A DNA stretch of 64,000 nucleotides from assembly GCA_017506865.1 (NCBI GenBank), contig JAFCMP010000445.1:124001-188000 (forward strand), in the 5' to 3' direction. The stretch comes from Tribonema minus. Lineage: Eukaryota > Sar > Xanthophyceae > Tribonematales > Tribonemataceae. Under the pieces are notes generated by a model. That model had not been told where the DNA came from. It did no database searches and saw nothing but the letters and a program-made list of their open reading frames with translations. Made by a program: the position numbers and the translations under genes. Position 1 is the first letter of the stretch. Every line of letters starts with the position of its first letter. Below, in pieces: positions 9,225 to 62,325 of the stretch.

Positions 9225-9400
9225 GTGCCACTTGGAGAACCCCCGGAGCCTGGTCCGCTGTGCTTATTCTTTATCCCCCCCCCTTGTGGCGACACTCTCA
9301 GGACGAGAACCACACTTCGAAGGCATCTTTTTGCGTGACTCACTTGGAGAGCCCCCCGAGGCCGTGGTGCTTCTTCTTGGGGTGCTGTGAATCCATAAAG
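9225..9400 (-). repeat. Ghost copies of the ATPase C-terminal coding end
   Basis: Two diverged copies of the last ATPase codons and stop region (ACTCACTTGGAGAGCC... on the plus strand) at about 9345-9400 and 9225-9250, downstream of the true stop at 9477. The longer one repeats about 55 coding bases including the Lys-Lys-Lys-His-His stretch. Confidence 0.75.
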
Positions 9401-9476
9401 TGGGCTTCGTAACTCAGAGGCACGCGAAAACCAGGGGCACACACAAACCGTACTTCGAAGAAGCGTTATGCGCGAC

Positions 9477-9682
9477 TCACTTGGAGAGCCCCCCGATGCC
9501 GTGGTGCTTCTTCTTGGGGTGCTGCGAGTCCATGAAGTGGGACTCGTCGTAGTTCTGCACGTGGCTCGTCTGCCTGTTGATGTTGAGGATGTTGTACTTG
9601 AACATCAGCTTGTACAGCAGCACCTTGCCCAGGTCCTGGATCAGGAACCAGATGAGGCAGTAGATCCAGACCAGGCCTGCGC

Positions 9683-9716
<34 letters not shown>

Positions 9717-12700
9717 CAGCAGCGCTCAGGTAAGGTGACGGTCCGTTGTCGCTTGGTCGCGAGGCGATTCAGATGGCGGCGGGAGGGAGTCCCCTGTTAA
9801 GGAACCTCGGCGCATGCGCCGCAATGGTGGTGACAGGCCGCCCAATACAATACTTCAAACATGAAGTTCTCATCGCACATCTGCGGGCTCATGACTTGAA
9901 ATTCTCACTCACCGCAGATCTGAGAGTTGACCTTCTCAGCGCCCTCGCCGATGGGCCGCGTACATCAGATGGTGCGGACACTGATGGCAGTACAATACTT
10001 CAAAGTTGAAGTTCTCACCGCAGATCTGCGAGTTGATCTTCTGAGCGCCCTCGCGGAAGGCCCGCGTGCACGCGATGGTAGTAGACAGGCCGACGGCAGT
10101 ACAGTACTTCAAAGTTGAAGTTCTGCAATACACTACTTCAGAGTCAAAGTTCTCACTCACCGCAGATCTGCGAGTTGATCTTCTCGGCGCCCTCGCCGAA
10201 GGGCCACGTGCACGCGATGGTGGTAGACAGGCCGACGGCCACCAGGAAGGCGCACATGAGCAGCTTGCCGGGCTTCACCTCCCAGAACGGGCCGCGGTTA
10301 CGCGACGCGAACAGCGTCAGGAAATCGCTGAGGGAGACCTGCGGATGGGGAGAGGGGGGGTGGGGGGTGTGGGGGGGGTCAAGTCACCTGTTGCATCAGC
10401 AGCCTGTTGGGGTTAATGGGCACTGTGGGATAATCCTTGTGTGTGTTGAACGTCGTGCAGGGAATTGGTATGCATCGAGCTGAGTCGATGCCCCAACCCT
10501 TTTTTTTGTGTCGTATCATGACGTCACCATTCACCAGCAACAAACCTCAACATTGCGCGTGCAGCAACGCACCTTGAGGTACATCATGGCCACACTTCGA
10601 CGCTTTCAATACCACGACAGTTCATGGTCACACTTCGACGCTTTCGATACCGCAACAGTCATCAACAAACTTCAACACTGCACTTGAAGACACGCGCACC
10701 TTGAGGTACATCATGGTGACAATCTGCTCGTACTCCACGTTCTCGATGCCCCACTTGGCCATCTATTTCAACACTGCACTTCAATATTGCACTTGAAGAA
10801 ACGCACCTTGAGGTACATCATGGTGACAATCTGCTCGTACTCCACGTTCTCGATGCCCCACTTGGCAAACACAGAGTTGGGGTTGTGCGAGTCGAGGCCC
10901 ATGTAGAGCAGCGCCAGGGAGGACACGCACGCAATGCCGCCGAGCACGCTCGAGATGAGGTAGATGGAGGGCAGGTTCCAGTCGTCGGGCCGGTGGTTGG
11001 GGATAACCTGGGGGGGGGGGGGAGTGGGGGGGTAAGGTATGTAGGGGTTAGCACGCGAAGTGGGGGGCAAATGAGGGAGGTGGAGGGTTCCAGTCATTGT
11101 CATTGGGCCTCGTGGTTGGGGATGACCTGGGGGGGGAGTAGGTACGTATGATTGAGCATGCCCAAATGAGGGAGATGGTGCCAGTCGTCGGGCATGTTGT
11201 GGGGGTTGACCATGGGGGGGTGAAGGGGGTAGGCAGGCATATATAGGTGTGCGCATGCCAAGAAGCAGAGCGGCGGAGGTGTATTTATTGCGACTGTGAT
11301 GAGCATGAGGGCGAGGACAGGTTAGGGTTAACCTCAAACCCTACCTAACCCTGATCCTCATCCCACCCGACCGTGACACCGCCACATCCAACCGTTACCC
11401 TGGCACTCGCGTGGTCGTACGCAATGGAGATGATGGTGCCGTCGTTGAGCACTGTGATGAGGATGAACCCTGCCCAACCCTATGTAACTAACTGCTGGCC
11501 CTGTGACAACTTCAACCTCCAACTTCAACCACACATCCGCAGCACTCACGTGGTCGTAAGCGATGGAGATGATGGTGCCGTCGTTGAGCACGGTGATGAG
11601 GATGAGCGCAATGACGGGCATGCTCCAGAAAGGTGGCCACGCCTTGCCGTCCTCCTTCACCGTCTGGGTGGACGAGGTGGGCGCGTCAGCGGGGAGGTCG
11701 CTGGGGACGTCGTCGTAGTCCGCGGGGTGCATGGCCAGGACCTGCGGCAGTTACACCACAGCAGTTACATGGGTGAGCCCTTCAACATGAATGAATCACT
11801 GACAGTCGCCATGCGCGAGCTAAGGTTCGGGTCGCTGGCAATGGGGCTGTAGTCCGCGGGGTGCATGGACAGGACCTGCAGCAGTTACACCACGGCAGTG
11901 AGCCCTTTGACATGAATGAACCTCTGACAGTTGTCATGCGCGAGCGAAGGTTCGGGTCGCTGGGGATGTCGCCGTAGTCCGCGGGGTGCATGGGACTTGC
12001 GGCAGTTACATGAGGTAGGTAAGTACGGCAGCGGAGTGAGCTTCACGCCAGAGCTAGTGAGGGCGATGGGGTGCGATGGAGTCCTTGCGGGTGCATGCAC
12101 GGGTGCGCGCCAGTGCTCACTAGGGCGATGGCCTTTTAAGTGCATACACGGGGGTGTATACACTGCTACTACACGTTGAGTACTACACATGAACTGTGGT
12201 CAAATCAGCAACAGACGCATGCATTCCACATCCGCAAGGCTTTCAGCTCATGCAGTTTGAGAGGTGGAAGGCAGCTATCATTGGCTCCTGGCGCACTCAA
12301 AACAATCGAGCGAGAGTTGTTGAAACTTCAAGTGCGAGGGGGGACGCACCGCGATGAAGAAGAAGAGGAGCAGCTGGAATGTGCACGCGACACGGTAGAT
12401 GATGAAGTTCTTCATGCGCGCGAAGATGCAGCGCGAGATGATGATGGCTTCGATGACAACGCTCAGTCCGGGGGAGGTCAGGATGATGTCCGCGGAGGCG
12501 CGCGCGGCGTCGGTGGCGCCCTGCACGGCGATGCCCACGTCGGCCTTCTTGAGCGCTGTCACGGGGGGAGAGGGGGGAGAGGGGGGCAGGGTATGCATAT
12601 GTGATTTCATGATCAACACAGCAGGAGAAGATGTGGCATGTACGCGTGCTGACAGGAGTGTGTGACGTCGGCCTTCTTGAGCGCTGTCATGGGGGAGAGA

Positions 12701-15700
12701 GGTAGGTATGTATGTGTGAGATGGTGATCAATGAGGACTTCTTGGGCGCTGATGAGGGCAGGGAGGACGGAGGGGGGGCGGGGGGCTTGTATGTATACAT
12801 ATGTACAAGCATCATGATCGGGAGAGTGCAGACATTAGCTTGTGTATAAGCGGGCGTAGGCATTTTTTAGCACACCGAAACGCAGATGCAAAGGTGATTG
12901 CTTTGAGCATCAAGAAATGCTACTGCTACTCCAAGGCCCCCCTGAACAACACGTGTACTGTTCTTGGCCGTGTGTTGGTTATTGGAGGTGGAGGCGGCGG
13001 CGGCGCCGTGCAAGGCAATTGAGTTCGTGAAGTTGGCCAATCAAGTACTTGAACTTGGTCATCGCCGCGCCGTCACATGTGCCAAGGGGCGCAGTTTTTT
13101 AGCAACTTCAACACTGGCGCCACCGGTTCCAAAACAGGCGCGTGCACGTGTGCCAAACTCGTTACCACAATACTCAGGCCTTGCCAATGCAACCGTTTGC
13201 AGCGCTGTGCGCCACCGCGTTCAGAGCAGATGCAAAGCAGAGGGCGTGCGTTCATATCCGAGTCAACGCCCAAGATGCATCCTGCAGCGTCCACACAAGC
13301 ACATGCCAGAGTATATTCGGTGCGCACATCATGATCAAACTTCAAGTTGAAGACTCACCGGGAGCGTCGTTGACGCCGTCGCCAGTCATGCCGACCTTGA
13401 AGCCCTTCTGGCGCAGGGCCTCGACGATGAGGAACTTGTGCTCAGGGAACACCTGCGCACGGCGAACAGGAAAGGCGCGAAACGGGTTAAAGTTACAGTT
13501 TGCATAGGTGACGAGGACCAGGCTGCATCTTCAACATGTTTGACAACATAGACTATACTGTAGCAGTGAAAGATGCTGGTGCCGGGGCCGGCACCGAGTG
13601 CATCTTCGACACCATTTTCGGAGACGCAATACTGCTGCAGCAGTAGACATCGACAAAGCCAGAACGCCAATGCACCTAGGCGCGAAGCCGTTGCAGCCCA
13701 TGGCGGTGGGCCCCGGGGCCCCGCGCATTCACCAGCCAACCTGCGGAAAGCATGCTTCATACATACCTACAAGGTCCATTGCGTACATACCCTCCGTATA
13801 CGTCCAGTGTATACTCGAGAACGACTCAGCAACGCACCTGTGCGAAGCCATTGCAGCCCATGGCGGTGGGGCCGAGCGTCTCCCCCAGGTTGGCGGGGAT
13901 CTCGCCGTTGGGACCCAGCGTCGGCAGGCCTTCGCAGCCAAGAATGTTAGTGCCCATGCCCAGCTGGCGCGCCGTCTCACGCGCAATGACGGCGTGGTCG
14001 CCGGTGATCATCTTGACGTCCACGCCGTGCTCCATGGCGCGCTCGATGGTGCGCTTGGTGTCGGGGCGCGGGGGGTCGAGGAAGGTCATGATGCCCATCA
14101 TGTACCACTGGCCCTGTTGTTTTGTTGTTTGGAAGGGGGGGCAGAGGGGGGGGGGGGGCGGGGGGGGGTGATCAGAGATCAAGGCGTAGGTGAGCCTTCT
14201 CAGTGCTCCATGGCTTTCATGGCTTTGGGTACAAGTACATGCACTTGCCTTGAACATACACACTTGAGGTCTACGTTTTGTCGCCGTACGCATGCACTGA
14301 ATACAACATACATGCATACCTGGGCCGGCCGTAGGCGCCATTACCCTTCAATACTACGGATGGGTATCAGTACAAACACATGCGTACAGCAATACATACA
14401 TACCTGGTCGTTGGTGCGCGCGACGGCGATCGAGTGGATGCCGCGCTCTGCGAGCTCCATGACTGCAAAGTCTAGACCTATTCCATCATGTTTCAATGCG
14501 TAAACTTGCATCAAAGTGCACACGTGAGATCTATGTTGTGTCACCGTATGCCTCATGCCACCACACCTGCATGGTCGTTGGTGCGCGCGACGGCGAGCGA
14601 GCGGATGCCGCGCTCCGCCAGCTCCATGCCCTCAAGTCTATATCAGGCATGTATGTATACATGCGCACAATATACATACATACCTGGTCGTTGGTGCGCG
14701 CGACGGCGAGCGAGCGGATGCCGCGCTCGGCGAGCTCCATGACCTTGAAGTCGACGGCCTGGTGGATGCGGTCCCTGTCGTGGCACAGGTCCAGGACAAT
14801 GTGGGGGGCGCCCTTGGTCACCTCAAACTCCTGTCGCGAGACAGAAGGCGCAGCACAGGGGGGGGTGAGGGGGGGTGCAGAGGGGCACAAGGGGGGGTGA
14901 GGGGGGGTGCAGAGGGGTGGAACGCAGGGGGGGATGAGCGTCATGATTTGAGGGGGGCAAGGGGGGTAAGGGGCAGCACAAGGGGGTGCGCGAGGGGGGG
15001 GGGGGGGGGGGGGGGTAAGGCTGCCGCAGTGCTGAGCCCACAGGCGTGCAAAGAGGGGCGGGGTGTAAGGCAGCGCCACTATGAGCGTTTCTGCCTGCAA
15101 TGCAGACGCCACCAGCCCGCCTCCTGTTCCCACAACAAGGCGCCTCCTATTTCCACAACAAGGGGGCGGAGCTGCCCGGCGTTCCAGATTCAACTTGGGC
15201 AGCGCACACGCGCAATGCGAGCTGGCTAGCAGCGCATTTCGCCGATCTCCATAAGCACGGCGATGGGCGTGCTCAAGCGTGGGGGGGTCGAACAGGGCAA
15301 GCGTGGAGCGTCACAGGCAAAGATCAGTTGCAGCTGAGCACTGTCACACGCACGCTACGCACCTTGCCCGTGGCGATCTCCATGCGCACGGCGCCGGTGC
15401 GCTCAAGGGCCATCACAGGGGGGGGGGGGGGGAGCGTGGAGCGTCACACGTGAAGCACAGTTGCAGTTGAGCGCTGACACGCACGCGCAACACGCACCTT
15501 GCCCGTGGCGATCTCCGTGAGCACGGCGCCGGTGCGCTTGAGGGTGGGGTCGAAAGGGGTGTAGGAGGTCTGGTTGTACGCGTCGCACTTCTCCAGGTCC
15601 GCCACGCCGAGCACCATGGTGTCGAGGGCGTCCTTGGGGGGCTCCTTCCACTTGGCGGCAAGCGCGGCGTGGAGGATGACGTTGTCGCGCGTGATGCCCT

Positions 15701-18700
15701 CCGCGAACAGGGGGCAGTCTGGGGGGGGGGGGGGTTGGGGGAGGGTGAGACTGACAATTGCTTTGAAGTTTGGGGGGGGGGGGGGGGGGGGGGAATGGGG
15801 AGGATGACGCCGTCGCGCATGATGCCCTCGGCAAAGCAGGGGCAGTCTGGGGGGGGCAAATGACGATTGGTCGGCAGTGGGGGGGGGGGGGAAGGGTGAG
15901 ACAGACATTGCTGTCGGAAGGTTTTGAGGGTGGGGGGGGGGGGGGGGGGAGTGAGACTGAAACTGCGCCAAGTTCCAGCGGCCCATCACAAGCGCGCACT
16001 GCGCATGCGCCAGCATGAACATGCTCTGCTCCGACAAGACGGAAACATACATACATCACACATGCTATGGGGATGCATCTGTATGTACCTTAAACTACAC
16101 AACAATGTATGCGCATGCGATACACCCTCCTGGATGACCATCTTGTTGAGCGTCAGCAATCCCGTCTTGTCAGAGCAGAGCATGTTCATGCCAGCAAGCT
16201 CCTCAATGGCGGCGAGGCGTGCGACGATGGCGTGTATATATATATATGTGTACTTTAATGTACACAAAATGTATGCGCATGCAAACTCACCCTCCTGGAT
16301 GACCATCTTGTTGAGCGTGAGCGTTCCCGTCTTGTCAGAGCAGAGCATGTTCATGCCGGCAAGCTCCTCAATGGCGGCGAGGCGTGCGACGATGGCGTTC
16401 ATCTCCGACAGGCGGCGCGAGCCGAGGGCCATGGTCGTGGTCACAACGACCTCCATCGCGATGGGGATTGAGGCCACGAGCAGCACCACCACGAACTGTT
16501 TGGAGCGGGGCGGCACAGAATAGAGTTAAAGTTGGTGTCAGAAACTTCAAGTTAGTGAATAAATGACAGGCGGCGCGAGCCGAGGGCCATAGTCGTGGTC
16601 ACCACGACCTCCATTGCGATGGGGATCGAGGCCACCAGCAGCACCACCACGAACTGTTGAAGCGGGGGCATGCGGGAGAGCGTTCAAGATTTCAAAAACT
16701 TCGAGTTTTTGAATCAATGACCACCATTGCGATGGGAGTCGAGGCCACCAGCAGCACCACCACAAACTGTTGATGCGAGAGGCCCACAGAGAGACTTGAA
16801 GTTGTAAGAAACTTCAAGTTTTTGAATAAATGCCATTATTAAATGGCCTCGAGCGATGGAGAGGGTAGCAGCAGCACCACCGCAAACTTTTGATGCGGGG
16901 CCAACAAGAGTTGAACTTGATTCAAGTGAGTCGAGTACTGCAAGACGCGGCACGGTGACGGCGTACTTCAAAGTTCAACTAGCACTGCTACCATGCGCAA
17001 GGCGGCGGCGGCGTACTTCAAAGTTGAACATGTACTGCCAGACGCGCGACGGCGGCGTCATACTTCAATTGTGCACTAGTACTTCAAGTTGAACTATTCC
17101 GCAGCGCTCACCGAGATGGCCTCCTTGAAGTCCTCGCCGTTGACGAGCAGGTAGATGAGGCAGATGCCGCACAGCACAAACGACAGGCCGAGCAGCACGA
17201 GCATGATGTTGAGCAGGACGCGCGCCAGGTGGCCCATGCCCTCCACGCTCTGGATCAGGCTCGCCGTCTTGCCGAAGAACGTGTTCATGCCCGTGGCGTC
17301 CACGGTCGCTTCCACCTCGCCGCGCGTGACGGTGGAGCCCATCTGCGCGCGTCGGCGAATGGGTACGTGAAGCATTAGGTATGGGCACTGAACGCAGGGT
17401 ATCACAAGCACATGCGCGCGTCGGCGAATGGGTACAGTAGGTATGGGTACTGTATGCAGGGTATTCACAAGCAAATACTATGTGCACGCCCGTGGCGTCC
17501 ACAATCGCCTCCGCCTCGCCGCGCGTGACCGTGGAGCCCGATTGCATGTGCCGATAAACGGGGTAGGTAGGTAGCACATGAGGTATGGGTATGCTGGGTA
17601 TAGCATGGGCATGAGTATGTAGGGGTATGATGTGCAATGAATGTGTTTGTGCGCGTTGCGTCCACGGTCGCCTCCACCTCGCCACGCATCACGGTGGACC
17701 CCATCTGAACACGCCAATTGATCAGCGGGAAGGCTGCGTATGCAGGGTGTCACATGCAAAAACCAGTTCGTAGACTGCATTCATGCCCCGTCGCATTGGC
17801 AGCCGCACCCGCCTCGCCGCGTGTGACAGTGGAGCGTGTCTGCGCCGCAGCGTGGGATGCTTGCGCAAAGATACTGGACCGCTTCTGCAAGTGACAGCAT
17901 GCCCCCTTTGCAAAGCGACGACTGCGCAACGGCACTCACCTTGGGGTTGTCATATTTGCCCATGGTGACAGGGAGCGACTCTCCGGTGAGGGCGGCCTGG
18001 TCCACGTCAATCTGGCCATCGTTGATCTGCGCCGCGCAAGAGAATCGAAACCGCAGTGGAAGGGGGGCAAAGTTGTCAGGAGTTGAAAGGGGGGCAACAT
18101 TGTCAGGTGGTGACGGCGACGCCGTGACAGGCTGCTTGCGCCCACCGCGCCTCGTGCGAAGACGTGACGCGCGTAGCGCGAGCTTTGGACTCCAGCACTT
18201 GGGCACGGCGCCGCTGACATGCAGTTGAAGGTGGGCTTGAAGTTGGCCCTTCATGTCCGTGGCACCACCGGGAATGAGAACTCCACTGGCAGTTTTCTTG
18301 CACTTGCATGCTGAGCTTCATGTTATACACAGGTTGTTGTCCTCACCAATCGTGACATGGCGCCACCCCGTTGCAAGCGCAAGTACTTGAAGTTCAGTGC
18401 TGCCACTTGAAGTTGAGTGGTAAGCCTCGCGTCTTACACACGCAACATCCTCAGGAGCCCGCGCGGTACACGGTACTGTTCGATTGGGCGCAGCATGCAA
18501 GCTGTAAGCACTTGAAGTTGACAACTCTTGGAACGACGCTCCACTGCGCGCTCCGCTGACTCGCTTCGCATTTGGCCAAGAGAATGGCGGGACCATCACT
18601 TGGGGGCCAGCAGCACATCAACATGCATTTCATCACGCCCACTGAACCACGAATTCATGGTGGCTCTTACGATGCAGTCAGCGGGGACGGCGGCGCCTGA

Positions 18701-21361: not shown

Positions 21362-22178
21362 GGCCAAACGCGAGCCAAGGCAGAGCTCTCCGCCCTGCAC
21401 CACCGACTGTCTGAGGCAGCGTCCTTGACAGCGAGAGAGGCTGCTAGCGCCCCGGTGGCAGGTTCCTGCTGTGTACCTGTCTCACTACACGCAGTGTCGA
21501 TCAACCCATTTTGACACGATCGGAAACGGGGGTCTGATTAAAGAAAGGGGTTTCCGCCGACGAGTATAGCCGGTTCAATCCGGACTTCGGCAAAAAGACA
21601 AATTAACCAAGCTCGTTCCGCTGCAATGATTCGGCTGTGTGCGGCATGCACGTCGCGCTGGTGCATACTGCAGTCCAGGGCACACGCCGTAATGCGCTGA
21701 CTTTTTTGGCACTGCACCATACCGACACAACGCTCTCGTGATTGGCCTCGGTATATGTAGATTGGGCCACACACGTGCAGCAACAACTGTTGCAGCATTC
21801 TCTTGTGCTGGCGTTTTATTGTCTGCAGATGTGATCACTCGAGTACAAAATGCATGTGGTTATGAAGGTGTGCACAAAGCCTGTTGAGAGCTGCCATGGC
21901 AAGAATTGTCTTTTTTTTGCTCAGGCGGCATCAGCAAAGTATCCGTCATTGACGTGCACACAGACAGCACAAGCTGAGCCATAGGATGTTTTGTTGTTTG
22001 CTGAACCCATGCTAGCATGAACCCATGCTAGCATGCTTGTGGTGTCGCATTGCAAGTTGTGAGACAAACCTGCTTTGTAAACAATTCTGGGTGTTTTTGA
22101 ATCGCCACAGGGGTTCAGCCCCGACACAGGAGGCTAACTGGCCAGCAGGACACAGAGCGCGCAAGGCACTGCAGGTGC
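21362..22178 (-). promoter_or_regulatory. 5' flank of the H+-ATPase (probable promoter), duplicated at 26098-26880
   Basis: Immediately upstream of the ATPase ATG at 21361, so it should hold the 5' UTR and promoter. From about 21373 it is nearly collinear and highly similar to 26098-26880. No core promoter motif can be assigned with confidence. Confidence 0.5.
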
Positions 22179-32600: not shown

Positions 32601-32602
32601 TA

Positions 32603-39620: not shown

Positions 39621-39644
39621 CCACGCACACAACCTGCGTCCTGT

Positions 39645-42600: not shown

Positions 42601-45600
42601 GCAGCCCAGGCAGCGATCAACCAGCCCACTGCTACCTAGTTACTCAAACACATACATATAATGCACACATATAGCTTAGTACAGCGCGCATCAGGGCTAG
42701 GTAGTCTGCGTCGAGGTACGCAGTGCGCGCAGATGGCACACGGGCGCTTGGCGGTGGAGCGGCGTCAGGGGTAGGGGTAGAATTAGGGTTAGGGTTAGGG
42801 TTAGCGTTATGTGCTAAGCAGCAGCGGCCACCTGCGTGGCCGATGCTGGCACCCACAAGGCTGCCTATTCGCCATCAAGTTTGCGCTGTTCTACACCGTC
42901 AAGTCTGCGCCCATGCTGCTGAGTTCCGTTTGGCGACTGTGACTAATGCGCGCACTCACAAGGCGTTCAAAGTGAATTGGCGGTCTTGGTGGTGCCTGAC
43001 GGAGACCATAGACTTGAAGTGTTGCCTATTCCTGGTGACGCACGGCATGCATGCATGTAGGTATCAAGGAGTGTCACTGGCTCAGATGAAGTAGGTTTGT
43101 GTGCCGCAACCAAGCTAGACAGAGACTGTTAACGCGCTGGAGACAGGGTCCGGGTTTGGTTCTGCATTGGGTGCGTTGTCGAGAGTGCAAGTCAAACTGC
43201 TCATAAACTTCCACACTGCAGCATCCTGCTTCTACATATAGCAGTGCTGTGGCTTGTCCACCAGGATCTAATCAGTAACAAGAGTGGCGGTGCTGCCAGC
43301 AATACCTACGTACATGCATCTGTGTGCATTGGGGTAGGTATGCATGGCAATGGATACATACCTATGGTAGAGTTCTCGCTGCTCCGGCTCGGTGAGCTCT
43401 GCGAAGATATCAATGAACCGCTCCACGTCCAGAATACGCGAAAAAATGGCGATAATAGCTTGAACCCTGTGGCAGAGGGCGGCGGAACATGGGGCAACAC
43501 ACGACCATTGCGTGAGGCAGTGAGCACACACATCACACATCGTGGGCCCAACGGATGGGAGAGTTGATGCACCATACCACATTCTGTGCAAAGATATTGC
43601 GTGGTCGCCCATTGAAAAGCGCTAGCGGAGCTCCAGCCAGCCGCTGCATGGCATACGTCACTTGCAATTGCTGCTGAGCACTGACACTTGTGTCACACCA
43701 CTGGAATAACCGCTTAGGGTTAGGGTTAGGCTGACACTTGTCACACCACTGGAATAACCGCTTAGGGTTAGGGTTAGGCTAACCCTAACTCTAACCCTGA
43801 CCCTAGCCCTAACCCTAAGGTGTGCAATCGCCGCTGGCGACGTTTGGTGCCATTTGCCCTACCCACAAAGAGTGAGCAGTGATTTTGTTCAAGCAGCCAA
43901 GATCAGCGCACGGCACCACCGCACAGGGTCAGGAGTACAATGAGGTAAGGTATAGGGTCAGGGTAGGGTTTAGGGCTAGCATGAAGTCGAGTTCTCCTCA
44001 GGGATTTGGGATGGACTAAGCAGTACACAGGACTCCTTGACATCAGGGCTAAGTGACTTCCAGAATTGGGGTTGAGGTAGGTGTAGGGTTAAAGATTCAG
44101 GGTTCAGTTGAGCACTTGGATTAGAATGTCTTAGGTGAGCATCAGTGCCGAGGCTAGCCCCCCCGCACATGCCCAAGTCCCAAACGGAGAACCGCTCAAG
44201 CTAATTACTGTACAGTAGGGGTTGAGCTTATATCTGCACGTGACGCGACCGCTGAGGACCACCCGAATGGCGTCAGGGCTAGGGTTGAAGCTGGGGTTTA
44301 GGGGTGCAACTAGGGTTTAGGGCCAGCTCCCCCCCCCACCTGCCAAAGTCTCACACGCGGCACCGCTCAAGCTTACTGTAGGGGGCTGAGCTTATATCTG
44401 CACGTGACGCGAATGCTTAGGACCACCCGCATTACATCAGGGCTAGGATTGAAGCTGGGGTTGAGGGCGCGGTCAGGGTTCAAGCAAGCTCCCCCCGCAC
44501 CTGCCAAAGTTCACTGCCATGAAGGGGACAAGATTAGGGTTAGGGCCAGCCCCCACACCCCTGCCATAGTCCGATGTGGAGACCATGACGACAACATGAT
44601 TACATGAAGACGACAAGATTTGGGCCAGGGCCAGCCCCCACGCACCTGCCAAAGTCCCAAGCGGCGAACACGACAACGACAAGATTAGGGTTAGGGGCAG
44701 CCCCCCCCCACGCACCTGCCAAAGTCCCATGCGGGGAACATGAGGACGGCGCGCTTCGCCTGCTCCACGGTGAACCACGCGCTGCACGTGCTGCTCGTCA
44801 GCAACATCAATTTGAAGTAGACGTAGCGGTACAGCGCCGTGGGCGCCCTGTCGGCGGCGAAACCGTCGACCGCCGACACGATGCGCGAAGTTCGAGATGC
44901 TGAGCCGCTGCTGCTGCTGCCGCCAGTGACGGTCCTGCTCTTGGCGTCGCCGGCGCCGCTGCCGCCGCTGTTGTTGCCGCCTTTGTCGGCGGTATCGGTG
45001 GCGGCGCTCTCGAAGATCTGGCGCTGCGCCGTGTCGAAGTAGTCGAAGCCGTAGTGGCTGCTGGACCTGCGGCAGCGGTTGAAGTTGCAGTTGAGGTTAT
45101 AGTTGAGGTTAACACACGCCTGAGCAGTGTCGCTGGGCTGACGCGCATCTGGCCCGGAAGCGCTGCAAGCATCACACCTGCACACAAACCAATGCTCACC
45201 CTACAGTAGCTATACTATTCGGTTCACAGTCCCCGACCACACTTTTCAACCAGTCGTAAGTTGCGATCACCCGAATGAACTTCCCTGCAAAGTGGTGGAA
45301 TGCAACGTACCGACCAGCCCTGCGAGTCCACGGTCATCCACGCCACAGCAGCAATCAGCAGCAGCTGACAAAGCATGGCTCGGCGCGCGCTTTGGCCTGC
45401 TTATGGTGAGCACTGACGTAAAATGCTGAGCAACGCTTTCCTACGTTGACTTTTCATTGTTCTTGCATAGCCGCACATGCTCTGGTGAAGTTGCCACCGT
45501 TCAAGCCTCACCTCTGGGATGTGGTGTGACTCTCCATGCCGCACCGTAAACAATGTTTATCTTGTCATAAACTATAAAGTAAGTACGAGAAACAGAGTGG

Positions 45601-53400: not shown

Positions 53401-56400
53401 CACTGGCGCATCGCAGGTCTAGGGTCAGTTTCAGGACAAGAGTTAGGGTTTAAGTATAAATTAGGGTTAGGGTTAGGCACCTTGAAACGCTCCAGCTCGT
53501 TCCGTACGGACTGCAGGTTGTCAATGAGCGCCTTGAGGCCGGCTGCGCTCTCAACGCTCAGCGCCGTGCTCGGGAACCTGCGCGTACAAGGGTTTTTAGG
53601 GTTAAATTGGGGCTAGTTGTTAGGGTTGAGGCTAGGTTAAGGGTCAGAGTGAGGGGTAGGATAGGTAGGAGCGTCACGAATGATACTGCGCCAGCAGCAG
53701 GTGTGGCAGGACTGCTCCCCGCTGCGCGTGATTCTCATGCGAACTGGTGTGCCGGCGATTGCGGGCTGAGCTGGGGCTGGTTTTCAGAAGAGAGCAACGT
53801 CGATACACGACAGTGCAGGGAGCAGCACAGCATTGGAGAACTACTGTACAAGCTGTGGACAGGTAGTCCGCAAGCCAAACAGAAGTGTTGTCGACAGTCA
53901 ACGTGCCCACGCGATGCTGCCTAGTGCTCATGTGTTACTGTGGGTTCACTGACTGACACCGAGCACGCGGCTGCTGGCAGAAGGGTTCTACTTCACATGG
54001 CAACGCTCAGTTTGTTGCGCTCGGATTTACCAGCTCCCTTTCACACAGTGAGCACAGCCAAGCAGACATATAATGGGTCACATGTGCCCATGGTGGTTGA
54101 TCATTCGTTGCAAGAGCAGCAACCACCACCAGGCTCTGTGTTGTGGATCCTGGTTATGCATGGCATGTATGCATGGTATATAGAAATGTGAGCCAGTTTC
54201 ACATTGGAGTGAGATGGTGATGCGTACGTATGCATGCAGGTAGGCACCGATGTCGAGATCACATGGTTTGTCGGGCTCAGGCCTGGAACTCAAACTTGGC
54301 AGCTGTAGGCACAGTATGCAAGTAGCACAGCCGCAGTAGGAGCATGTACTGTACCGGAAGTACTTCATTAATAAAAAGTACTTCAAGAAGTTCGCGCCCC
54401 TAGCGAAGCGAAATATATTATAGTACAGATGGGTCTAACTAGCAATCCTTACCCCAACCCTAACCCTGACCCTGACCCTAACGCTGACTCTACGCCTAAT
54501 CCTAGCCGTACCCTCAACGCTATTCCTAACCTAACCCAAAGAAGATACCGCGGTCTCATTCAAAAAGAATGTACTCGCAAACACCCTTCAGATATGTGAC
54601 GGCAAACGCTATCTGTACTCCATGTGCGCTGCGCCCCACCTCTCCGCCACTAACGTGATGAACAGGGCGCCGTGGGTAGGTATGGGCCAGAGCTAACCAA
54701 CCTTAACCCTAACTCTAACCCTAAAATGCTATCTCTACTCCATGTGCGCTGCGCCCCACCTCTCCGCCACGAAGGCGATGTACAGGAAGCCCTGGGTAGG
54801 TACAGGCCAGGGCCAACTAACCCTCACCCTAACCCCAACCCTAACCCCAACCCTAACCCTACCCCTAACCCTAATCCTAACCCTAACCCTAACCCTAACC
54901 CTACCCCTAACCCTAACCCTAACCCTAACCCTAACCCTAATCCTAACCGTAACCGTAACCATAACCATAACCCTAACCCTAACCCTAACCCTAACCCTAA
55001 CCCTAACCCTAACCATAACCGTAACCATAACCGTAACCCAACCCCAACCAAACCCTAACCCTAACCCTAACCCGAGCCCTAACCCTGAAACGTTAACTCT
55101 ATTCCAAGTGCGCGTCGTGCCCCACCTCTCCGCCACGAACGTGATGTACAGGGAGCCCTGTGTAGGTTTAGGCCAGGGCTAGCCTAACCCTAGCCCTACC
55201 GTAGATCACGGAGTAACCCCCCCCCGTTTTGTCACGTTGCGAGGCCCGTGTTAGAAAGACGGGGGGTCTATACGGGGGGGGGGGTCTTATACAACGTACC
55301 CCCCGTCTTGCACGCGCGTGAGTGGCTGCGGTAGCATATATCGCATGATATACACAGCAGCGCACAGCTACTGCAAGCAGCAGGCCACAAATGCACGTTC
55401 TGCAGCTCCTATCCTAGCACGCCTGGTTCAAACACGCCCTTAGCACTGCAACCTCACGGCTGCAGAGGCATTGCACGGCAATGCAGCTCGCACCACCTGC
55501 TTTTGCGCTGCACCACAACTAGTCCCTCGCGCTGAATTATGCCGAAACGACTTGAAGTTTGCGTAACTGCCATGTCCTTTGTCTACGACCCCGGTCTTTT
55601 ACAACACGTGCTTACCCCGGTCTTATACAGCATACCCCCGGTCTTGCGTGCACACACACACCTCCCTAGGGAGACGGAGGGTCTTATACTACAGTATACG
55701 ATGGGGGGGACTTATACAAGAGGGGGGGTTTATACTCCGTGATCTACGGTAACCCTGACCCTAACCCTAACCCTAACCCTAACGCTAGAACGCTATCTCT
55801 ATTCCACGTGCGCTGCGCCCCACCTCTCCGCCACGAACGTGATGTACAGGGAGCCCTGTGTAGGTATAGGCCAGGGCGCACCATCCGCAGAGGCCGAGAG
55901 GTGCCCCTTGGGCCTGTCAGCGCAAGAAAAGTGGTGCAAAGCAGAAGTTGCAAGCATGAGATAAGAGCGCAAGCGTCGCGAAGTGCGATGGTGCGAACAG
56001 TGACTTTTGAACTGCAAGCAGACGCGCTCATTGTCGACACTGCGCAGGCTGCGCGAGGTGAAATGTCGGACAGGTGCCCGCTGGGCCTGCCACCGCAAGA
56101 AAAAAGCGTTGCAAAGAAACTTGCGTTCGTCGCCCGGGGGAACACGCGAGCAGTCGCGACCGACACGCACGCACAGCACGGGCGTCACACAAGAAGTTGA
56201 ACTTGGCATCGTGCGCAGCACGTCGCAACCGCCGCCGCACCTGTCGATCACCCTGAACGTCAAGCAAGCAGTTGAATCCGGCATGCATCCGCAGCGCACA
56301 CGTCACATGAGTAGTTGAACTTTGAATTATGCGCAGCGTATCTCGACCGCCGCTGCACCTGTTGATCAACCTGGGTGTCAAGCGAGCAGTTGCATCCGGC

Positions 56401-59400
56401 ATGCACCCGCAGCGCGCACGTCACATTACTAGTTGAACTTTGAATCATGCGCAGCGTGTCTCGACCGCCGCTGCACCTGTCGATGAACCTGGGCAGCGCG
56501 CACGTCACATGAGAAGTTGAACTTTGCATCATTTGCAGCGTGTCACCACCGCCGCCGCAACTGTCGATCACCCCTGGGCTTCGCGCGAGCAGTTGCAACC
56601 GGCACACGAGAAGTCGAACTTTGCTAAGTCATGCGCAGCACGTCTCAACCGCCGCCGCACCTGTCGGGCTGCTTCATGTGCTCCAACATCATCACAGTCG
56701 TAAAACAAGACTCGCGTCAACCCGGGGCGTAGTGCAATCGGTCGAACGAGCCGCACATGAGACCTGCGGCACGCACGTCACATGTTAAGTTGAAGTTTGC
56801 CTTATGCGCAGCACGTCTCAACCGCCGCCGCACCTGTCGGGCTCTCTGACGTGCTCCAGCATCATCATGGTCACAAACTCGTCCGCCTCGATGCGCCCGC
56901 TCTTGTCAATATCGAAGATCGCGATGAGCCTGCGGCAGTGCGTGTCAGTGCTCGGCGCGCCCAGCGCCAGCAGCACCTGCGCGCGAGGGCGGTTATCGTA
57001 ACTGTATATAGCTGCCACGATTCAAAAGGGTGCAGCGCGCAGTTGCTACAACCGATGTAACTGCCCCACGATTCGAAATTGTGCAGTAGAAATGCTCTAT
57101 ATCCGTGCCATCATGACCAAATGTAACTGCCGTGATTAAGCGCTTTGCCGTAGGAAGGCGCCATGACATGCCATGCATGAGGCCATGAAATTTGCCGCTG
57201 GGCTTTCAAGTACAGTAATAGGAGAGTCACTCAAGTTCAAACACTTTCAAATGAGTTCCGGGCTGAGCACACGCGCGGCAGCTGCTGCAGCAACTGGCCA
57301 GGAGTCGACTTGAGCGCCTTGTCAGGATATGCTAAGGAGGGGGGGGGGGGCGAGTGCAAGCTCTTGACGAAGGGTTTCATTGTCGAATTGCGGCCATTGC
57401 ATGTTGGGGAGAAGGCAGCGTTGGCTGTAGTTTGTTCTATTCATGCAGCCGCAAGTTCGCCGTCTAAACTGTACGCCTGGTGAGTGTTGACACCCGCACA
57501 AGTACGAGAACAGGAAGAGCTACTTGAACTTCAGCAAACTACGTGGGTGGGCGTTGAGAGAGCTGCGGCGAGCGGCGCTGTCACTGGTGGGGTGAGCAAG
57601 TACGTAGTCTGCATGCAGTGCGGTTTGGGTTGAAGAAGCGCAGCGCTCAGCAAAGCTGCGACGCTCACATGGCGCCGGTGTCAAGTTGTACAGCGATCAT
57701 ACTTCGAAGTACAAGATTTCACGGTGGCCCCCTACCTGGTGAAGTTCGTGCCACTCCAGCGATCTGCTCCCATCCGTGTCGAACAGCTGCAGGCTCGCAA
57801 AAAACGCAACAGCAGCCGTAATACCATGTCAATTTTCAAGCATTTAGAAAACGCGTCAATGCGGCAAGATTACGACTCATGAGTCAAGTACTTCACAGGT
57901 CAGTCAGGCTAGCGGACAGTGCAACAGCAGCAACAAAAAGACGTGACGTCAGCTTTAAGTAGACAAAGTTTATCAGGAAAGCGCCAGAAGGACAAGAATA
58001 TGACTCGGGAGTCATGCACCTCACAGTTGAGTCATGCAGGCGGGGCCTTGCACACGATTCGCATGGCTTTTTCAGACAAAGGGAGGCTCTTTTGCACGCT
58101 GCAGTGTGCGTGAGAAATCTGCAGGTTACAAGTTGAAGCTTTGCTGAGCATTAGTCTGCACCTGCTGCAACGCAATCGTGATGCCGGTTGTGACGTGCCA
58201 CGGGGATCGATGCTGCTGGTCAACGAAGTGCAAAGTGGATACAAACTTGACTATTGTTGAGAGTTGTCATTTTGTTGCAAGCGTCGTGCGAGTACGGACA
58301 GTGCCTAGGGCTACAACCAAGTCCCACAATATTGCCACTACCAGCGGAGGTGCGCACAGAAGACATGCTCGCCCAAGATTGGTCGGCTCTGTCTAGCATC
58401 CCGGGCGCGTCAATTTGCGGTCTCACACAGCTAACCCTAACCCTAAGAGGCCCTGTGCTTCACACCCTAGACCTGACCCTAGCCCCTGCCATAGGCTCCG
58501 TTTCCATCAAGCAGTCTTGCAAGTCCAGACAGCGCCTAGTGTGGGGTTCAGCAAATCCACCAGAGGTGGGTGCGTGTGAGACCAAGGTCGGGGTTCGTAC
58601 ACATGCCTTGCACGTCCAGGCCGACCGATGCGCGGCAGGTTAGGGTTATAAAGTCAGGGTTAGGGTTAGGATAAGGGTTGACGCACGATGAGCACCGCCG
58701 TGAACTTGGTGTTAGGGTTAACATCAGGGCCAGGGTTAGGGTTAGCTGATTGGGGCTGACGCACCATGAACACCGCCCTGAACACAGCAGCAAACACCTC
58801 GGGCCCGGGCAGCCCCGGCCAGTAGATCAGCGGAACGATCCTCTGGCACAGTCCCTCGGCAGGGGACAGCCCCAGGCACCGCAGCGCGCGATCGAGGAGA
58901 TCCGCAGCACGCCTCAACTGCTCAGGCTCCCAGTCGGGCCAGATGACGCCTTCATCGGGGCTCGAAGAGGGGGTCTTCTGCACTGGCGAGGCTGGCTGTG
59001 CTCTTGTTTTGCCTGCAGCAGGCCGGTGGGGGGGGGGGGGGGGGGGGGGGGAGGGGCAATTTAGAAATGCTGTTCCCGAGAGGTAGCAGCAGTTTGACAG
59101 CATCCATTCCGGTGGGAAGCAACACTTCAGCAGCACCTATCACAGTGAATGCGGTTTGTTGTAAGCACTTCAGCATTTGCTACAGATTCATGCAAAGCTT
59201 TTAATAAGTACTTCGGAAGTAGCAGCAATCTGCACAATAGCGAGATATAGCAGTTTGGTGATGCTACATGGGGGCTGACTATGCTCGCGCTTTGCCCGCA
59301 GCGGGGCACGGTGTCACATTTCAGAGTTACTTGGGAGGCGTGGACACTTCAACTTCACTTCTTCAACTTCATCAACCATTTATTAGAGTCAAACATTACA

Positions 59401-62186
59401 CATTCACAGCGCTTCTGTTGGCGTATTACGATGGAGTTGTGCAGGCACTGGCCACTGGGAGCATCTGCACGTAAACTCTCACATCGTACCCATATGTGTA
59501 CGTTTTGGGGCAGTGCCCATCGCTGCGGCCCCGATGCGCAAGCATACGGTCGACCCTGCAGCTATGTACACATGCAGAATCTCGAGCTATCTCTGGGTAC
59601 TATGTGCAGCGCCCCCACCGCCGCCACCACTGCGCTATGAGCCATGACGCATAGTTCAAGCACCGATGGACCCAAAGGTGCGTGTACACGGGAAGCTGTG
59701 AGCGTTTTTCTGCGTGGTGGCAGTCTGAGCGCCTCTCACTGCTTGCGCAAGGGACAACGCGTCATGGCTCAGCAGCCGCCGTCGACGCGCTCTCAGGGGC
59801 ACCCCCTCGCCGCCGCCGCCTCGCGCGATGACGTGTCATGGCTCAGCAGCAATGGCCGTCATGAGTGCGTACATCTGCACGTTAGCAATCTGCGCACCCC
59901 GCCCATGTCAAAGGACGCCATGGAAACGACCTTGGGTTTAGGGTTAGGGTTAGGGTTAGGGTTAGGGTTAGATGTCACATCTCAGCAACGGCAGCAGCAG
60001 CTGCCGTCATCGCTACATACAAGGGCAGGTAGGCGGGTACACGTGCACGGTTGTGAGCGCGCCGCCCCGACTGACGACCAAAACGTGACATGTCTCAACA
60101 GCAACAACGGTCGCTTGAAGTCATGAGTATGTAGTATCTGCGCGATTGCAAGTACGCCGCACAAATTTAGGGTTAGGGTTAGGGTTAGGCCAAGACGTGA
60201 CATGGCGCAGCAGCAACAGCAAGTGTTGACTAACGTCGAGGGTACGCAGGCATACCTGCGCGAGCGTACGTCTGCGTCAGCGCTGCGCCGCGCGCCGCCG
60301 CCGCCACGAACGACCACGTGTTGTGGCCGAGCGACGCTGCTTCCTCCAATAGTGGGTCATAGCTGCGGACAGCATGCACAGGGCATTGAGAGAAGTTGAG
60401 CGCGTGTAAAGCGGCGCTGTAATCGTGCTTCAAGTGTTGCAATTGTGGTAGCAGCGTATTGGAGCATATGGCACTTGCATGCTCATCGCCGTTTGCACGC
60501 TTGGCGGTTACGGCAGTTACACTTGCCAGTGCACGGACTACAACTCGTCCACTTCTGGCAGCATACAACTACGTCGGCCTCCAAGAGCGGGGCATAGCTG
60601 CGAACGGCATGCAGAGCGTAGTGAGGTGAGCAACAAAGTAACGGGCAACCATGTAGAGCGGCATGGTGCCCGCGCGTCACATGTCGTGCTTGCTGCGCAT
60701 GGCGCAGCCGCTTTGACAGCTTGAACATCCTTTCGGCACCCAGTTTGCGATAGCAGCGCATCGATCGTACATGAGTTCAGCATCTCAACGAGCCATTTCG
60801 GAATTCCGCTGGTATCGCATTCCTTTAACATTGCCGGCGCTCGAGGCGGCCTCAGTGTCATTGTGCGCGAGTCAGTTAATAGCCACTTTCTTTGTGTCAC
60901 CTCACATTGGTAACCTGAGTCGACTGAAGCAGGCGAGAGTGATCACGCATTAACCGCCTTCTGTGACCCCACTCGCAGTTTTCATCCACAATGTGACCAA
61001 ACAGGCAGAAAAAGGTCATCTTTCAGCTGTGCCTACCAGCCATTGCCTCTACCGCAGCTGCGCCTAACCCTTGTTGGCTGCCTGTCAGCATGAGGTGTGA
61101 TTTGACACACTGCCGGTTTCCCCGGGGGCTTGCCAAAAGTGTTCTACGCCTGGTCCCCAACCGCACTCTCAGCTCGCATTAGAACGTGACCAAAGCAGGC
61201 AGAAGAAGCCTCTGGCAGCACCTGGCTTTTCTTAGCGTTGCGGGGGTGGACTGGTGGAGGAGTTTGATGGGGCTCCGCTTGGCCCGCGCCCCGGGGCCGC
61301 TGGCCAGATCCATTGACTGCAGCTCAAATCCCTGGTGCGATGATTGTGGACAGCAGAGATGTCAAAACAGGTGTCACACGGGCCAGGCTGCAGTGCTCCG
61401 TTGACAAAGTCAGGTTCATGCTCTGCAGCTTGAACCCCTGCTGCGGTGACTGCGGCAAAAACCTCTAAAAATGTATATGCCGCACGGCTGAGGCAGCAGT
61501 GCTTGCTTGACCAACAACTCAGGTTTGTTGACTGCAGCTCAAACCCCTGGTGCGTTGATGGTGGGAAAGTGCGCTCATATGTTGAAGTTGTCACACGGCT
61601 CAGGTGACGAACAGAGCATCCCAACAAGGAGGGCTGTACGGCCTTGCACAGGCAATCGCTTGTTTCCTCACATCAACACAGTACGCCAAACTTCAGCACT
61701 TGTGTGCATCTGTGCTCATCCCAGACCCACGAGGCAACGTGTTCACGGCGTCGGCAAGCAAACCCTTGCAGCAGTTGCAGCTGCGCAGCACGCACTGCCA
61801 AATCCCAACATTACTCAGCATCGAGGCGTCTCATACATACATGCGCCGTGGCGCCTGCCCAGTCCAGGGGCGGTGTTCACATGCCTTTCCGCTGATTGCT
61901 GACATGTGCAAAACGTGCGGTGAAGGAGCAACTTACAGTGTGGCATATCCAACATGCTTCTGGTATACTGCCTCGCTACAGGCTCAGGTGTGTAGGTGAA
62001 CTGCAAGCACTCATTTATCACTCCGAAGTGTTTTGTGCGCCAGCAATGAGGCTTGGTCCAAATGGAAGTCCTCTGCCTGTTTGTGACCATATACAAACAA
62101 AAGTAGTCACCTGCTTGGTCTCGCTGAGGTAGATGAGCTCGGCGCACACCATCTTGCCGTAGGGCGTGGAGAGATCCAGCGCGTAC
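39645..62186 (-). CDS. Large modular EF-hand protein, at least 19 exons (5' end not found)
   Basis: Exons: 62186-62111, 61316-61222, 60362-60256, 59012-58765, 57786-57736, 56976-56834, 55913-55824, 53577-53481, 52361-52239, 50628-50411, 48410-48333, 47827-47716, 47472-46876, 46592-46477, 45066-44716, 43466-43362, 41813-41653, 39847-39645. One further candidate lies at 63314-63229. The 18 listed exons join in phase at every junction and give 989 residues before a TAG. Exons 57786 and 56976 form a classical EF-hand pair with loops DTDGSRSLEWHE and DIDKSGRIEADE, so calcium binding is likely. Other parts recur as modules: a Y-x-LDL segment three times (exons 62186, 50628, 41813) and a W-x(2)P...G-x-L-x(3)F segment twice (exons 55913, 39847). 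Exon 47472-46876 is 199 residues of poly-Ala and Gly/Ser. No enzyme domain is seen; function unknown. Confidence 0.75.
39960..40870 (-). repeat. ~173-bp ghost array of the EF-hand gene last-exon acceptor edge
   Basis: Six units with starts near 39971, 40143, 40290, 40463, 40636 and 40805 each repeat about 50 coding bases (PIAGWILPGP-coding) and the 3' splice site; the true edge is 39794-39847. Spacing is 147-177 bp. Divergence grows toward 40870. Confidence 0.85.
40990..41640 (-). repeat. Ghost array of the 41813-41653 exon donor edge
   Basis: Five copies of ACCTCGCTCGTGGCGAAACG and the next bases (donor plus ETFRHER-coding end) begin near 40998, 41143, 41259, 41389 and 41523. Each is followed by CTTCAACTCCTA-like intron sequence. 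Confidence 0.9.
41905..42420 (-). repeat. Ghost array of the 41813-41653 exon acceptor edge
   Basis: Four copies of GGTGCTCAGCGCTCAGCACG and the following CATGCCCAGCCTGCGCC lie near 41910, 42070, 42228 and 42378. They include the 3' splice site and the RLGMLN-coding start. Confidence 0.9.
42780..42808 (+). repeat. Telomere-like TTAGGG tract
   Basis: Three to four TTAGGG units inside an intron of the EF-hand gene. Confidence 0.8.
43713..43818. repeat. Head-to-head telomere-like repeat with 50-60 bp duplication
   Basis: Two near-identical segments (CACACCACTGGAATAACCGC plus TTAGGGTTAGGGTTAGG) are followed directly by CTAACCCTAACTCTAACCC, reversing repeat polarity near 43775. Confidence 0.85.
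44160..44665 (-). repeat. Ghost array of the 45066-44716 exon donor edge
   Basis: Five copies of GCACCTGCCAAAGTCCCA or close variants near 44165, 44338, 44500, 44560 and 44642, separated by TTAGGG-derived sequence. The true edge is 44711-44730. Confidence 0.8.
46215..46710 (-). repeat. Ghosts flanking the 46592-46477 exon
   Basis: Donor-side copies (TCACCTGAACGCTG on the plus strand) at about 46221-46255 and 46338-46415, and an acceptor-side copy (CACTTGTAGACCTGG) at about 46665-46705. Confidence 0.8.
49510..50345 (-). repeat. Ghost array of the 50628-50411 exon donor edge
   Basis: About six copies of CTGTGCTTGGATGCCAG and the following TTTGCGGCCTCGCCCAGCC near 49525, 49695, 49828, 50028, 50138 and 50292, diverging with distance from the true edge at 50411-50465. 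Confidence 0.9.
50700..51690 (-). repeat. Ghost array of the 50628-50411 exon acceptor edge with TTAGGG filler
   Basis: Five copies of CCGCGCATGTTGACCACCAG and the ~95 bases after it, ending in the splice-site motif CTGCAGCAGYGCTCA, begin near 50722, 50930, 51110, 51303 and 51492. Each unit is completed by 50-100 bp of TAGGGTTAGGG-derived sequence. Confidence 0.9.
53355..53405 (-). repeat. Ghost of the 53577-53481 exon donor edge
   Basis: CACCTTGAAATGATCCAGCT and the next 30 bases repeat the true edge at 53479-53530, with CTAACCCTAA-type sequence after the donor in the true copy. Confidence 0.85.
54605..55165 (-). repeat. Ghosts of the 55913-55824 exon donor edge set in telomere-like sequence
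   Basis: Three copies (about 54610-54680, 54732-54802 and 55098-55168) of the PTQGxLYIxFVAER-coding end with its GTGGGG donor. The intervals are CCCTAA arrays. Confidence 0.9.
54817..55089 (-). repeat. Long degenerate CCCTAA array
   Basis: About 45 hexamer units, mostly CCCTAA with CCCCAA, CCATAA and CCGTAA variants, inside an EF-hand gene intron. Variant units cluster (ATAACC/GTAACC), indicating local amplification. Confidence 0.95.
55199..55749. mobile_element. 551-bp TIR element (MITE-like) inserted in telomere-like repeats
   Basis: The ends are inverted repeats starting CCGTAGATCACGGAGTA, flanked by TA (55197-55198 and 55750-55751). On both outer sides the host sequence is CCCTAA-derived. 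Inside, GTCTTATAC-type motifs and runs of C or G recur about eight times in both orientations. There is no transposase. Confidence 0.85.
56200..56700 (-). repeat. Ghost array of the EF-hand-2 exon donor edge
   Basis: Five copies of GCCGCYGCACCTGTCGAT or variants near 56231, 56350, 56465, 56552 and 56652, each preceded by AGTTGAACTTTG and a GCGCAGCACGTCTC-like piece. The true edge is 56823-56865. Confidence 0.85.
58680..58720 (-). repeat. Ghost of the 59012-58765 exon donor edge
   Basis: GACGCACGATGAGCACCGCC and GTGAAC match GACGCACCATGAACACCGCC at the true edge (58758-58780). TTAGGG tracts lie on both sides. Confidence 0.8.
59934..59971 (+). repeat. Telomere-like (TTAGGG)5 tract
   Basis: Five perfect units within an intron of the EF-hand gene. 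A shorter tract of about three to four units is at 60166-60189. Confidence 0.9.
60580..60625 (-). repeat. Ghost of the 60362-60256 exon acceptor edge
   Basis: GAGCGGGGCATAGCTGCGAA and CGGCATGC repeat the true border at 60350-60375 (ATAGCTGCGGACAGCATGC). Confidence 0.8.
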
Positions 62187-62269
62187 CTACATACCCCAGT
62201 GGGCAGCAGCAAACAGCCCACGAGCACTCATGAGATCAGTGCACGGCAATTCAAACACATTCTGAGCAA

Positions 62270-62325
62270 GTATATATATTGCCGTAGGGCATGGACTGGT
62301 CCAGTGGGTACCTACCTACCCCAAC
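62270..62325 (-). repeat. Ghost of the 62186-62111 exon acceptor edge
   Basis: GCCGTAGGGCATGGACTGGT and the following CCAGTGGGTACCTACCTACC repeat the true border at 62156-62195. Confidence 0.8.

Follow-up and report, generated by a model that had tools for sequence, protein, structure and literature searches.

The origin and lengthening of introns is an open question, to which the usual answer is transposons. Intron gain by tandem duplication was reportedly described by Gao and Lynch in 2009 and by Hellsten in 2011. According to the accessible part of one account, tandem duplication is one of the leading causes of intron gain and the only mechanism of intron gain that has been shown in vivo (PMC3443670). 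In the potato RdRp gene, as described in the accessible part of the original article, a tandem duplication extends over an intron-exon boundary, and the duplicated unit holds the polypyrimidine tract, the 3′ splice site and the start of the exon; a second duplication of 83 bp lies inside an intron of the same gene (Ma, Lan & Niu, 2016, PMC4974935). In addition, introners are associated with large-scale intron change in diverse eukaryotes (PMC9860276, accessible part), and small tandem duplications arise at breaks with 3′ overhangs through overhang filling and end-joining, according to the abstract of Schimmel et al. (2021, PMC8355091). A single duplication across an exon border is therefore already known. 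In the literature searched, which was mostly without subscription papers and is weak evidence of absence, no paper was found to report that duplications favour exon borders across a genome.

The window analysed here is a stretch of 64,000 nucleotides of Tribonema minus (C445:124001-188000) from an assembly of 158 Mb in 554 contigs. Its self-matches were mapped first, and the exons of a P-type (H+-)ATPase gene were then placed by peptide and GT-AG sites (Table 1). The gene, which was recognized by Pfam E1-E2_ATPase, peptides and a stop-free GT-AG model, has 14 exons and 13 introns, and more exons are possible on either side. Its own introns contain 21 exon-edge copies, a count of the same order as the more than 25 given in the original prediction, and 12 of the 13 introns carry copies of an exon edge with its splice site. 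Of the repeat clusters in these introns, 14 straddle an exon border, one touches a border and none is interior.

Edge copies also accompany an exon of a methyltransferase gene (Pfam Methyltransf_25), with two copies upstream of the exon start and one downstream of the exon end, and an EF-hand-like exon, whose end is followed by five downstream copies. The EF-hand_7 match is weak (27.7 bits against a curated cut-off of 30, E = 5.5e-4, C445:180860-180967), and the donor of this exon was read from the sequence. The figure of more than 45 copies claimed for the EF-hand gene was not reproduced, because only one exon was anchored, the one with the five copies, and the remaining exons were not. Dense arrays found as self-matches, with units from 93 bp upwards, make up 81% of the stretch at 39-42.5 kb and are probably the same exon-edge-copy feature. 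No Pfam family was found for the three ORFs tried there, so a fourth host gene remains a candidate. Of the four unrelated host genes originally proposed, the fourth is thus unconfirmed.

From 20 to 34 kb, no local repeat (offset 60-260) was found at a G+C content similar to that of the rest, so the repeats of the window are unevenly spread. Within this stretch lies an element bounded by 282-bp direct repeats that are 99.3% identical, with a long ORF between them, which we take from its look to be a Copia-like LTR retrotransposon. The same stretch without local tandem repeats contains a direct repeat of approximately 740 bp, whose copies are 84% identical and lie 4.7 kb apart. Elsewhere, the window has interior telomere-like tracts of (CTAACC)n or its complement, the longest with 45 copies, and a low-complexity open frame of 1272 codons that is rich in Ala, Gly and Ser and may either encode a real protein or be open by chance in GC-rich DNA. 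A search of the window with Rfam returned nothing at the gathering score.

Table 1. Gene models, exon-edge copies and other features of the window (positions in the window; ATPase exon ends are peptide-based).
Feature	Position	Strand	Real edge or remark
P-type (H+-)ATPase gene	9480-19838	-	
ATPase E1	19838-19728	-	
ATPase E2	18997-18821	-	
ATPase E3	18029-17940	-	
ATPase E4	17342-17106	-	
ATPase E5	16498-16292	-	
ATPase E6	15701-15498	-	
ATPase E7	14830-14690	-	
ATPase E8	14113-13838	-	
ATPase E9	13452-13360	-	
ATPase E10	12559-12347	-	
ATPase E11	11729-11547	-	
ATPase E12	11001-10804	-	
ATPase E13	10338-10159	-	
ATPase E14	9677-9480	-	
E2 end and donor, copy	18620-18737	-	real 18773-18889
E4 acceptor and start, three copies	17481-17539; 17639-17707; 17780-17845	-	real 17277-17345
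E5 acceptor and start, copies	16565-16835	-	real about 16407-16568
E5 last ~107 coding bases and donor, copy	16084-16233	-	real 16249-16398
E6 acceptor and start, copy	15799-15947	-	real 15671-15793
E6 end and donor, copy	15243-15409	-	real 15374-15544
E7 end, two copies	14572-14632; 14378-14463	-	real 14659-14745; farther copy with donor
E8 end and donor, copy	13668-13713	-	real 13830-13873
E10 acceptor and start, copy	12665-12702	-	real 12537-12573
E11 acceptor and start, two copies	11830-12010	-	real 11696-11755
E11 end and donor region, copy	11403-11466	-	real 11542-11605
E12 start, copy	11071-11136	-	real 10955-11017
E12 end and donor, copies	10669-10759; 10535-10589	-	real 10778-10866
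E13 end and donor, copies	9908-10097; 9820-9974	-	real in 10014-10239
E14 end and following bases, copy	9308-9410	-	real 9446-9547
Methyltransferase exon and copies	35624-36458	+	gene about 35.7-36.5 kb
Methyltransferase exon start, upstream copies	35624-35667; 35712-35835	+	
Methyltransferase exon end, downstream copy	36388-36458	+	real 36194-36264
EF-hand-like exon and copies	56194-56967	-	EF-hand_7 match 56967-56860; donor about 56834
EF-hand-like exon end, downstream copies	56611-56694; 56507-56566; 56431-56482; 56305-56362; 56194-56246	-	
Dense arrays	39115-42428		
LTR element	27006-31760		repeats 27006-27287 and 31479-31760
ORF between the LTR repeats	28074-31424	-	
Direct repeat, ~740 bp	21370-22104; 26093-26767		
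Telomere-like tracts	54817-55086; 59938-59971; 43779-43818		
Open frame, 1272 codons	1171-4989		(CGG)n, 115 bp, at 3429-3543

The wider sample consisted of CCT, GroEL, HSP70 and further P-type ATPase loci, which were located with Pfam profiles and picked by family rather than by repeat content. The three GroEL genes joined the sample together after copies were already visible in two of them, and all three were included. HSP70 was sampled with five genes from 12 groups and kinesin with two from 13 groups. The main set comprises 75 introns of 15 genes (46.4 kb), a small sample of genes in which chaperones predominate. To fix the splice sites, we used continuity of the profile, reading frame, lack of stops and GT-AG scores; in L027 and L022, the final intron was retained with a weak model. 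The counts omit L019 and L020, in which copies are visible and exon hits are too few, L031, L035, and adjacent exon pairs that lacked a splice model or had an oversized profile gap. A second set contains 12 introns of nine loci, with four weak splice models (L028, L029, the second of L032, and L033). To find edge copies, all 75 introns of the main set were searched with coding-edge queries of at most 100 nt.

Against their own introns (150 edge-intron pairs), these queries gave 79 plus-strand matches at 41 of 150 edges, including 25 donor and 16 acceptor edges, and a single minus-strand match. Against all other introns (11,100 pairs), they gave 43 matches, of which 34 lie between paralogous genes, three trace to the opposite edge of the exon concerned and six belong to neither class. 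Most copies (69 of 79) extend to within 3 nt of the real edge. Moreover, the intron sequence beside a copy resembles, on average over the copies, the intron beside the real edge, and the whole intron part is homologous (z > 3) in 23 of the 37 nearest copies. Therefore, the duplicated unit crosses the junction. The duplications are mostly 80-230 bp long and their exon part is usually 20-80 nt; across the clusters, exon-part length is fairly even from 0 to approximately 80 nt and rarely greater. In the GroEL gene L027, for example, the exon end corresponding to E. coli residues 273-311 is repeated four times downstream with a spacing of approximately 160 bp, and in the GroEL gene L024, the exon end up to residue 290 is also repeated four times. 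Set against minisatellite-like arrays, in which one unit recurs head to tail regardless of gene structure, the picture is mixed: spacing is regular in some arrays (L027_i3, L024_i4 and the EF-hand-like exon), but placement follows the borders, and several aligned copy pairs are separated by spacers of 8-288 nt, so such pairs are not perfect tandems. These results confirm that the edge copies are real and extend beyond the window, and the predicted introns with tandem decaying copies of adjoining exon borders are present in several unrelated genes, within the window and outside it.

Several further features of the repeats were noted. Local repeats with good matches have offsets from near 80 bp, which are densest at 120-200 bp. 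Among L017-L041 and L045-L046, only one local repeat with an offset of 20-80 bp was found at an identity of at least 85%, which represents a sharp lower limit of size; the densest range, 120-200 bp, is nucleosome-like. An intron of L041 (3803-4328) has an 87-bp unit that reaches 4 nt into the exon and is 97.7% identical between copies; this pair has the highest overall identity among the pairs listed as alignments, and its 8-nt separator, gtgagctt, is itself a good donor-like sequence. The motif CTTCAA/TTGAAG is approximately fivefold over-represented in the window (124 vs. 25) and clusters near intron starts in the 15 genes (19 vs. 5.6 expected within the first 25 nt), where it is perhaps an intronic splicing signal. 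As a breakpoint signal, the motif was unconvincing, with 12 occurrences in 1960 nt before donor-type copies and five in 1200 nt after acceptor-type copies, and it was rejected as the cause of the duplications.

The placement of repeat clusters along the introns is uneven. When straddling is defined as crossing the border by at least 8 nt, 44 of the 53 clusters in the 75 introns straddle a border, four touch one and five are interior, on the understanding that clusters within one gene are not fully independent and that long border arrays may hide interior duplications from the counts. Among clusters at an identity of at least 88%, 21 straddle, one touches and none is interior, and when the ATPase gene of the window is left out, 30 border, three touching and five interior clusters are counted. 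As a null, uniform duplication was simulated in introns of the same genome with mutation, indels, exon constraint and identical search settings. Single events gave a border share of 0.41-0.45, with roughly equal numbers of border and interior clusters. When events were repeated in the 42 copy-free introns and clustered in the same way, the share was 0.41, 0.42 and 0.45 at three rates, and at each rate none of 4000 resamples of 75 introns reached 44 of 53. The base introns with no duplications added yield 4.3 border, 5.4 touching and 4.2 interior clusters per 75 introns. The second set, with five border, one touching and three interior clusters, points in the same direction and is not decisive. 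The analysis thus supports the view that duplications favour exon-intron junctions over intron interiors in these introns, and the border enrichment that was originally suspected holds against the simulated uniform null.

After duplication, the copies are mostly unconstrained, decay roughly neutrally and look dead. Copies and real exons differ at 103 of 1467, 78 of 1465 and 213 of 1473 sites at codon positions 1, 2 and 3, respectively (7.0, 5.3 and 14.5%). The coding constraint by which a duplicated, mutually exclusive exon would be known is not seen in the copies, in which positions 1 and 2 together differ at 6.2%, compared with 14.5% at the third position, and 188 of the 394 mismatches are nonsynonymous. 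The corresponding values for coding paralogues are 5.2, 2.7 and 30.5% for L037-L039, 0.6, 0.4 and 3.5% for L037-L038, and 16.4, 11.5 and 43.2% for L021-L027, the last with a third-position ratio of only about 3. For equal change at the third position, the copies vary more at positions 1 and 2 than coding exons do. The third positions of copy-exon pairs also accumulate the silent changes of the exon itself, and their excess is larger than the approximately twofold excess expected if copies and synonymous sites were fully neutral. Changes private to the copy are distributed over the codon positions as 15, 9 and 27 in the nearest copy (p = 0.007) and as 10, 7 and 13 in the most similar copy (p = 0.41). 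Because the excess is more than twofold and the private changes give a split result, slight constraint on the copies, or gene conversion, is possible. An excess at the third position is also found between copies (151 of 1267, 128 of 1270 and 231 of 1277), and it would follow from successive copying off the exon. The original prediction held that the copies usually keep GT or AG and the reading frame. The splice dinucleotide is indeed retained in 57 of 69 copies (0.83; 34 of 43 donor-type and 23 of 26 acceptor-type), but decay alone predicts 0.88. Gaps are indeed rare (17 in 79 alignments), but the distances of the copies modulo 3 (19, 21 and 29) reveal no preference. A coding role for the copies was therefore rejected, as codon position, frame and splice-site retention give a mostly neutral pattern.

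Of 75 ordered pairs, 56 show greater divergence in the farther copy (Spearman 0.32, p = 0.004), in agreement with the predicted rise of divergence with distance, whereas the comparison of the nearest with the farthest copy at each of 19 edges reaches only p = 0.07. The median length is 688 nt in the 33 introns with copies and 488 nt in the 42 without (p = 2e-5). Strong differences exist between paralogues that have the same intron positions. In GroEL, L021 has edge copies in none of five introns (357, 479, 772, 302 and 524 nt; none by the edge-search criterion, with one small border self-match cluster that reaches 10 nt into the exon), and L027 has them in all six, including introns of 2382, 897, 1131, 865 and 823 nt. 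In HSP70, copies occur in none of the four introns of L037 and of L038 and in three of the four introns of L039. L037 (C522:953100-959300) and L038 (980200-986400) lie on opposite strands with a third-position divergence of 3.5%; three of their introns align at 67-77% (BLAST) and one is 99.6% identical, a pattern that suggests either gene conversion in patches or introns that evolve very rapidly. A recent edge event between these two genes was considered and rejected, as their 127-bp intron difference (450 vs. 323) is interior and has no repeat cluster. Across the 15 genes, the fraction of edges with copies is correlated with gene GC3 (Spearman 0.77, p = 9e-4): copies occur at one of 64 edges in genes with GC3 below 0.85 and at 40 of 86 edges in the remaining genes. 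L018 is an exception, with the top GC3 of the first set (0.945) and copies at one of eight edges, and the link was not reproduced in the small second set of 12 introns. Within genes, the edges that bear copies are higher in G+C (p = 0.001).

We believe that these introns probably grow by recurrent duplications that straddle the junction, with the outer splice site remaining in use and the inner copy decaying. Short local duplications, mostly of 80-230 bp, would extend between a point in the exon, usually no more than 80 nt from the border, and a point in the intron. The spliceosome would stay with the outer original site, which is the first donor or the last acceptor, because only the outer site yields the right protein, and the inner copy would turn into intron and decay. 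Further rounds would recopy the real edge, so that inner copies would tend to be older and introns would lengthen from both borders. With less confidence, we suggest that the duplications may start where GC-rich exon DNA breaks or its synthesis stalls; those that cross a border would survive, and wholly exonic ones would be purged because the protein would change. The fairly even distribution of exon parts between 0 and about 80 nt, with few longer ones, fits a break at the exon edge combined with selection against long exon copies, and it fits a process coupled to splicing equally well.

This explanation must be weighed against others, the simplest of which is that neutral duplication arises anywhere and that copies at borders are merely noticed or preserved more often since their exon half does not decay. 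The original prediction had offered such a neutral alternative; its neutral decay agrees with the copies, but their origin is non-uniform along the introns examined. The exon half does ease the detection of old border pairs (0.85 vs. 0.64 in the oldest simulated class), and three interior clusters accompany the five border clusters of the second set. However, the null that yields a border share of 0.41-0.45 includes this detection bias, and the observed ratio is 44 border to five interior clusters, or 21 to none at an identity of at least 88%, which makes uniform duplication improbable. Selection on the copies, either as working alternative ends of exons or as decoy splice sites, could be invoked for the dinucleotides kept in 57 of 69 copies and for the larger divergence of third codon positions. 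Nevertheless, retention is near and not above the neutral value, the distances are not multiples of three and nearly half of the mismatches (188 of 394) are nonsynonymous; the competing functional splice sites originally envisaged find no support in the codon-position mismatches, the distances or the dinucleotide retention, although inner sites may still be used, and we regard selected copies as very improbable. It is scarcely credible that the repeats are traces of intron birth, whether by tandem duplication of an exonic AGGT or by introner transposons, even though many junctions read AG/GT and the accessible part of PMC3443670 ranks tandem duplication among the leading causes of intron gain. 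The donor flank of an intron matched its own acceptor flank at E 0.01 in none of the 75 introns, compared with 18 matches among 5550 pairs of different introns. Between genes, ten intron matches were found at E 1e-6, five between the HSP70 genes L037 and L038, four between the GroEL genes L024 and L027, and one of 104 bp between L027 and L040. With no matching flanks, and with matches between genes limited to paralogues and this one 104-bp case, neither intron birth nor introners explain the sample. Furthermore, the intron positions predate the copies, as the copy-rich L027 shares with L021 all five positions compared in this pair, and these introns are not new.

The alternative closest to the explanation that we favour is duplication coupled to the junction, in which the DNA around splice sites would be duplicated by a process linked with either splicing or the transcript (RNA-DNA hybrids, breaks connected with the spliceosome, or RNA-templated repair). 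It shares with recurrent straddling duplication all of the established observations, namely straddling copies, many of them with an intron and an exon part, their location in the adjacent intron, their mostly unconstrained sequence and their far higher frequency at borders than in interiors, and the two differ solely in what would produce the border bias. Such coupling is suggested by the 48 of 53 clusters that straddle or touch a border, by copies at 25 donor edges as well as at 16 acceptor edges, and by the fairly even exon-part lengths from 0 to 80 nt. However, a model with initiation in the exon predicts the same drop, and the junctions of the copies have no consistent motif; we therefore consider this alternative unlikely. 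In a bolder form, which we advance as a tentative and somewhat doubtful proposal, junctions themselves would be duplication hot spots through splicing or co-transcriptional structure, and introns would grow inward from their borders, most of all in GC-rich genes. If this is true, intron length would be a by-product of junction-targeted mutation and not of transposons or uniform insertion.

Each copied exon edge represents an oriented and roughly datable fossil of one insertion, and intron growth therefore becomes readable event by event. Because of the border bias, a mutational mechanism tied to gene structure becomes directly testable. The copies are also a warning for annotation, since gene finders that rely on homology will be misled by incomplete copies of exons whose splice signals are intact.

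Compared with the known systems, introners copy themselves into many genes according to the accessible part of PMC9860276, and no such family occurs among the 75 introns. The abstract on break-repair duplications mentions no link with exon borders (PMC8355091), whereas the units described here are mostly 80-230 bp long and biased towards junctions. The resemblance to intron gain by tandem duplication, as presented in the accessible part of PMC3443670, consists of a short duplication that includes exon sequence and of splicing that absorbs the extra copy. However, in that model a new intron is formed out of an exon and its donor and acceptor ends match, whereas here existing introns are lengthened. 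The potato RdRp gene is similar in that the duplicated unit spans a splice junction with exon and intron sequence, as in 23 of the 37 nearest copies here (z > 3). According to the accessible part of PMC4974935, the potato case concerns one gene in which the exon part was kept as an exon and a new intron was made, whereas in the present case many genes are involved, on both donor and acceptor sides, and the copies have apparently been left as intron.
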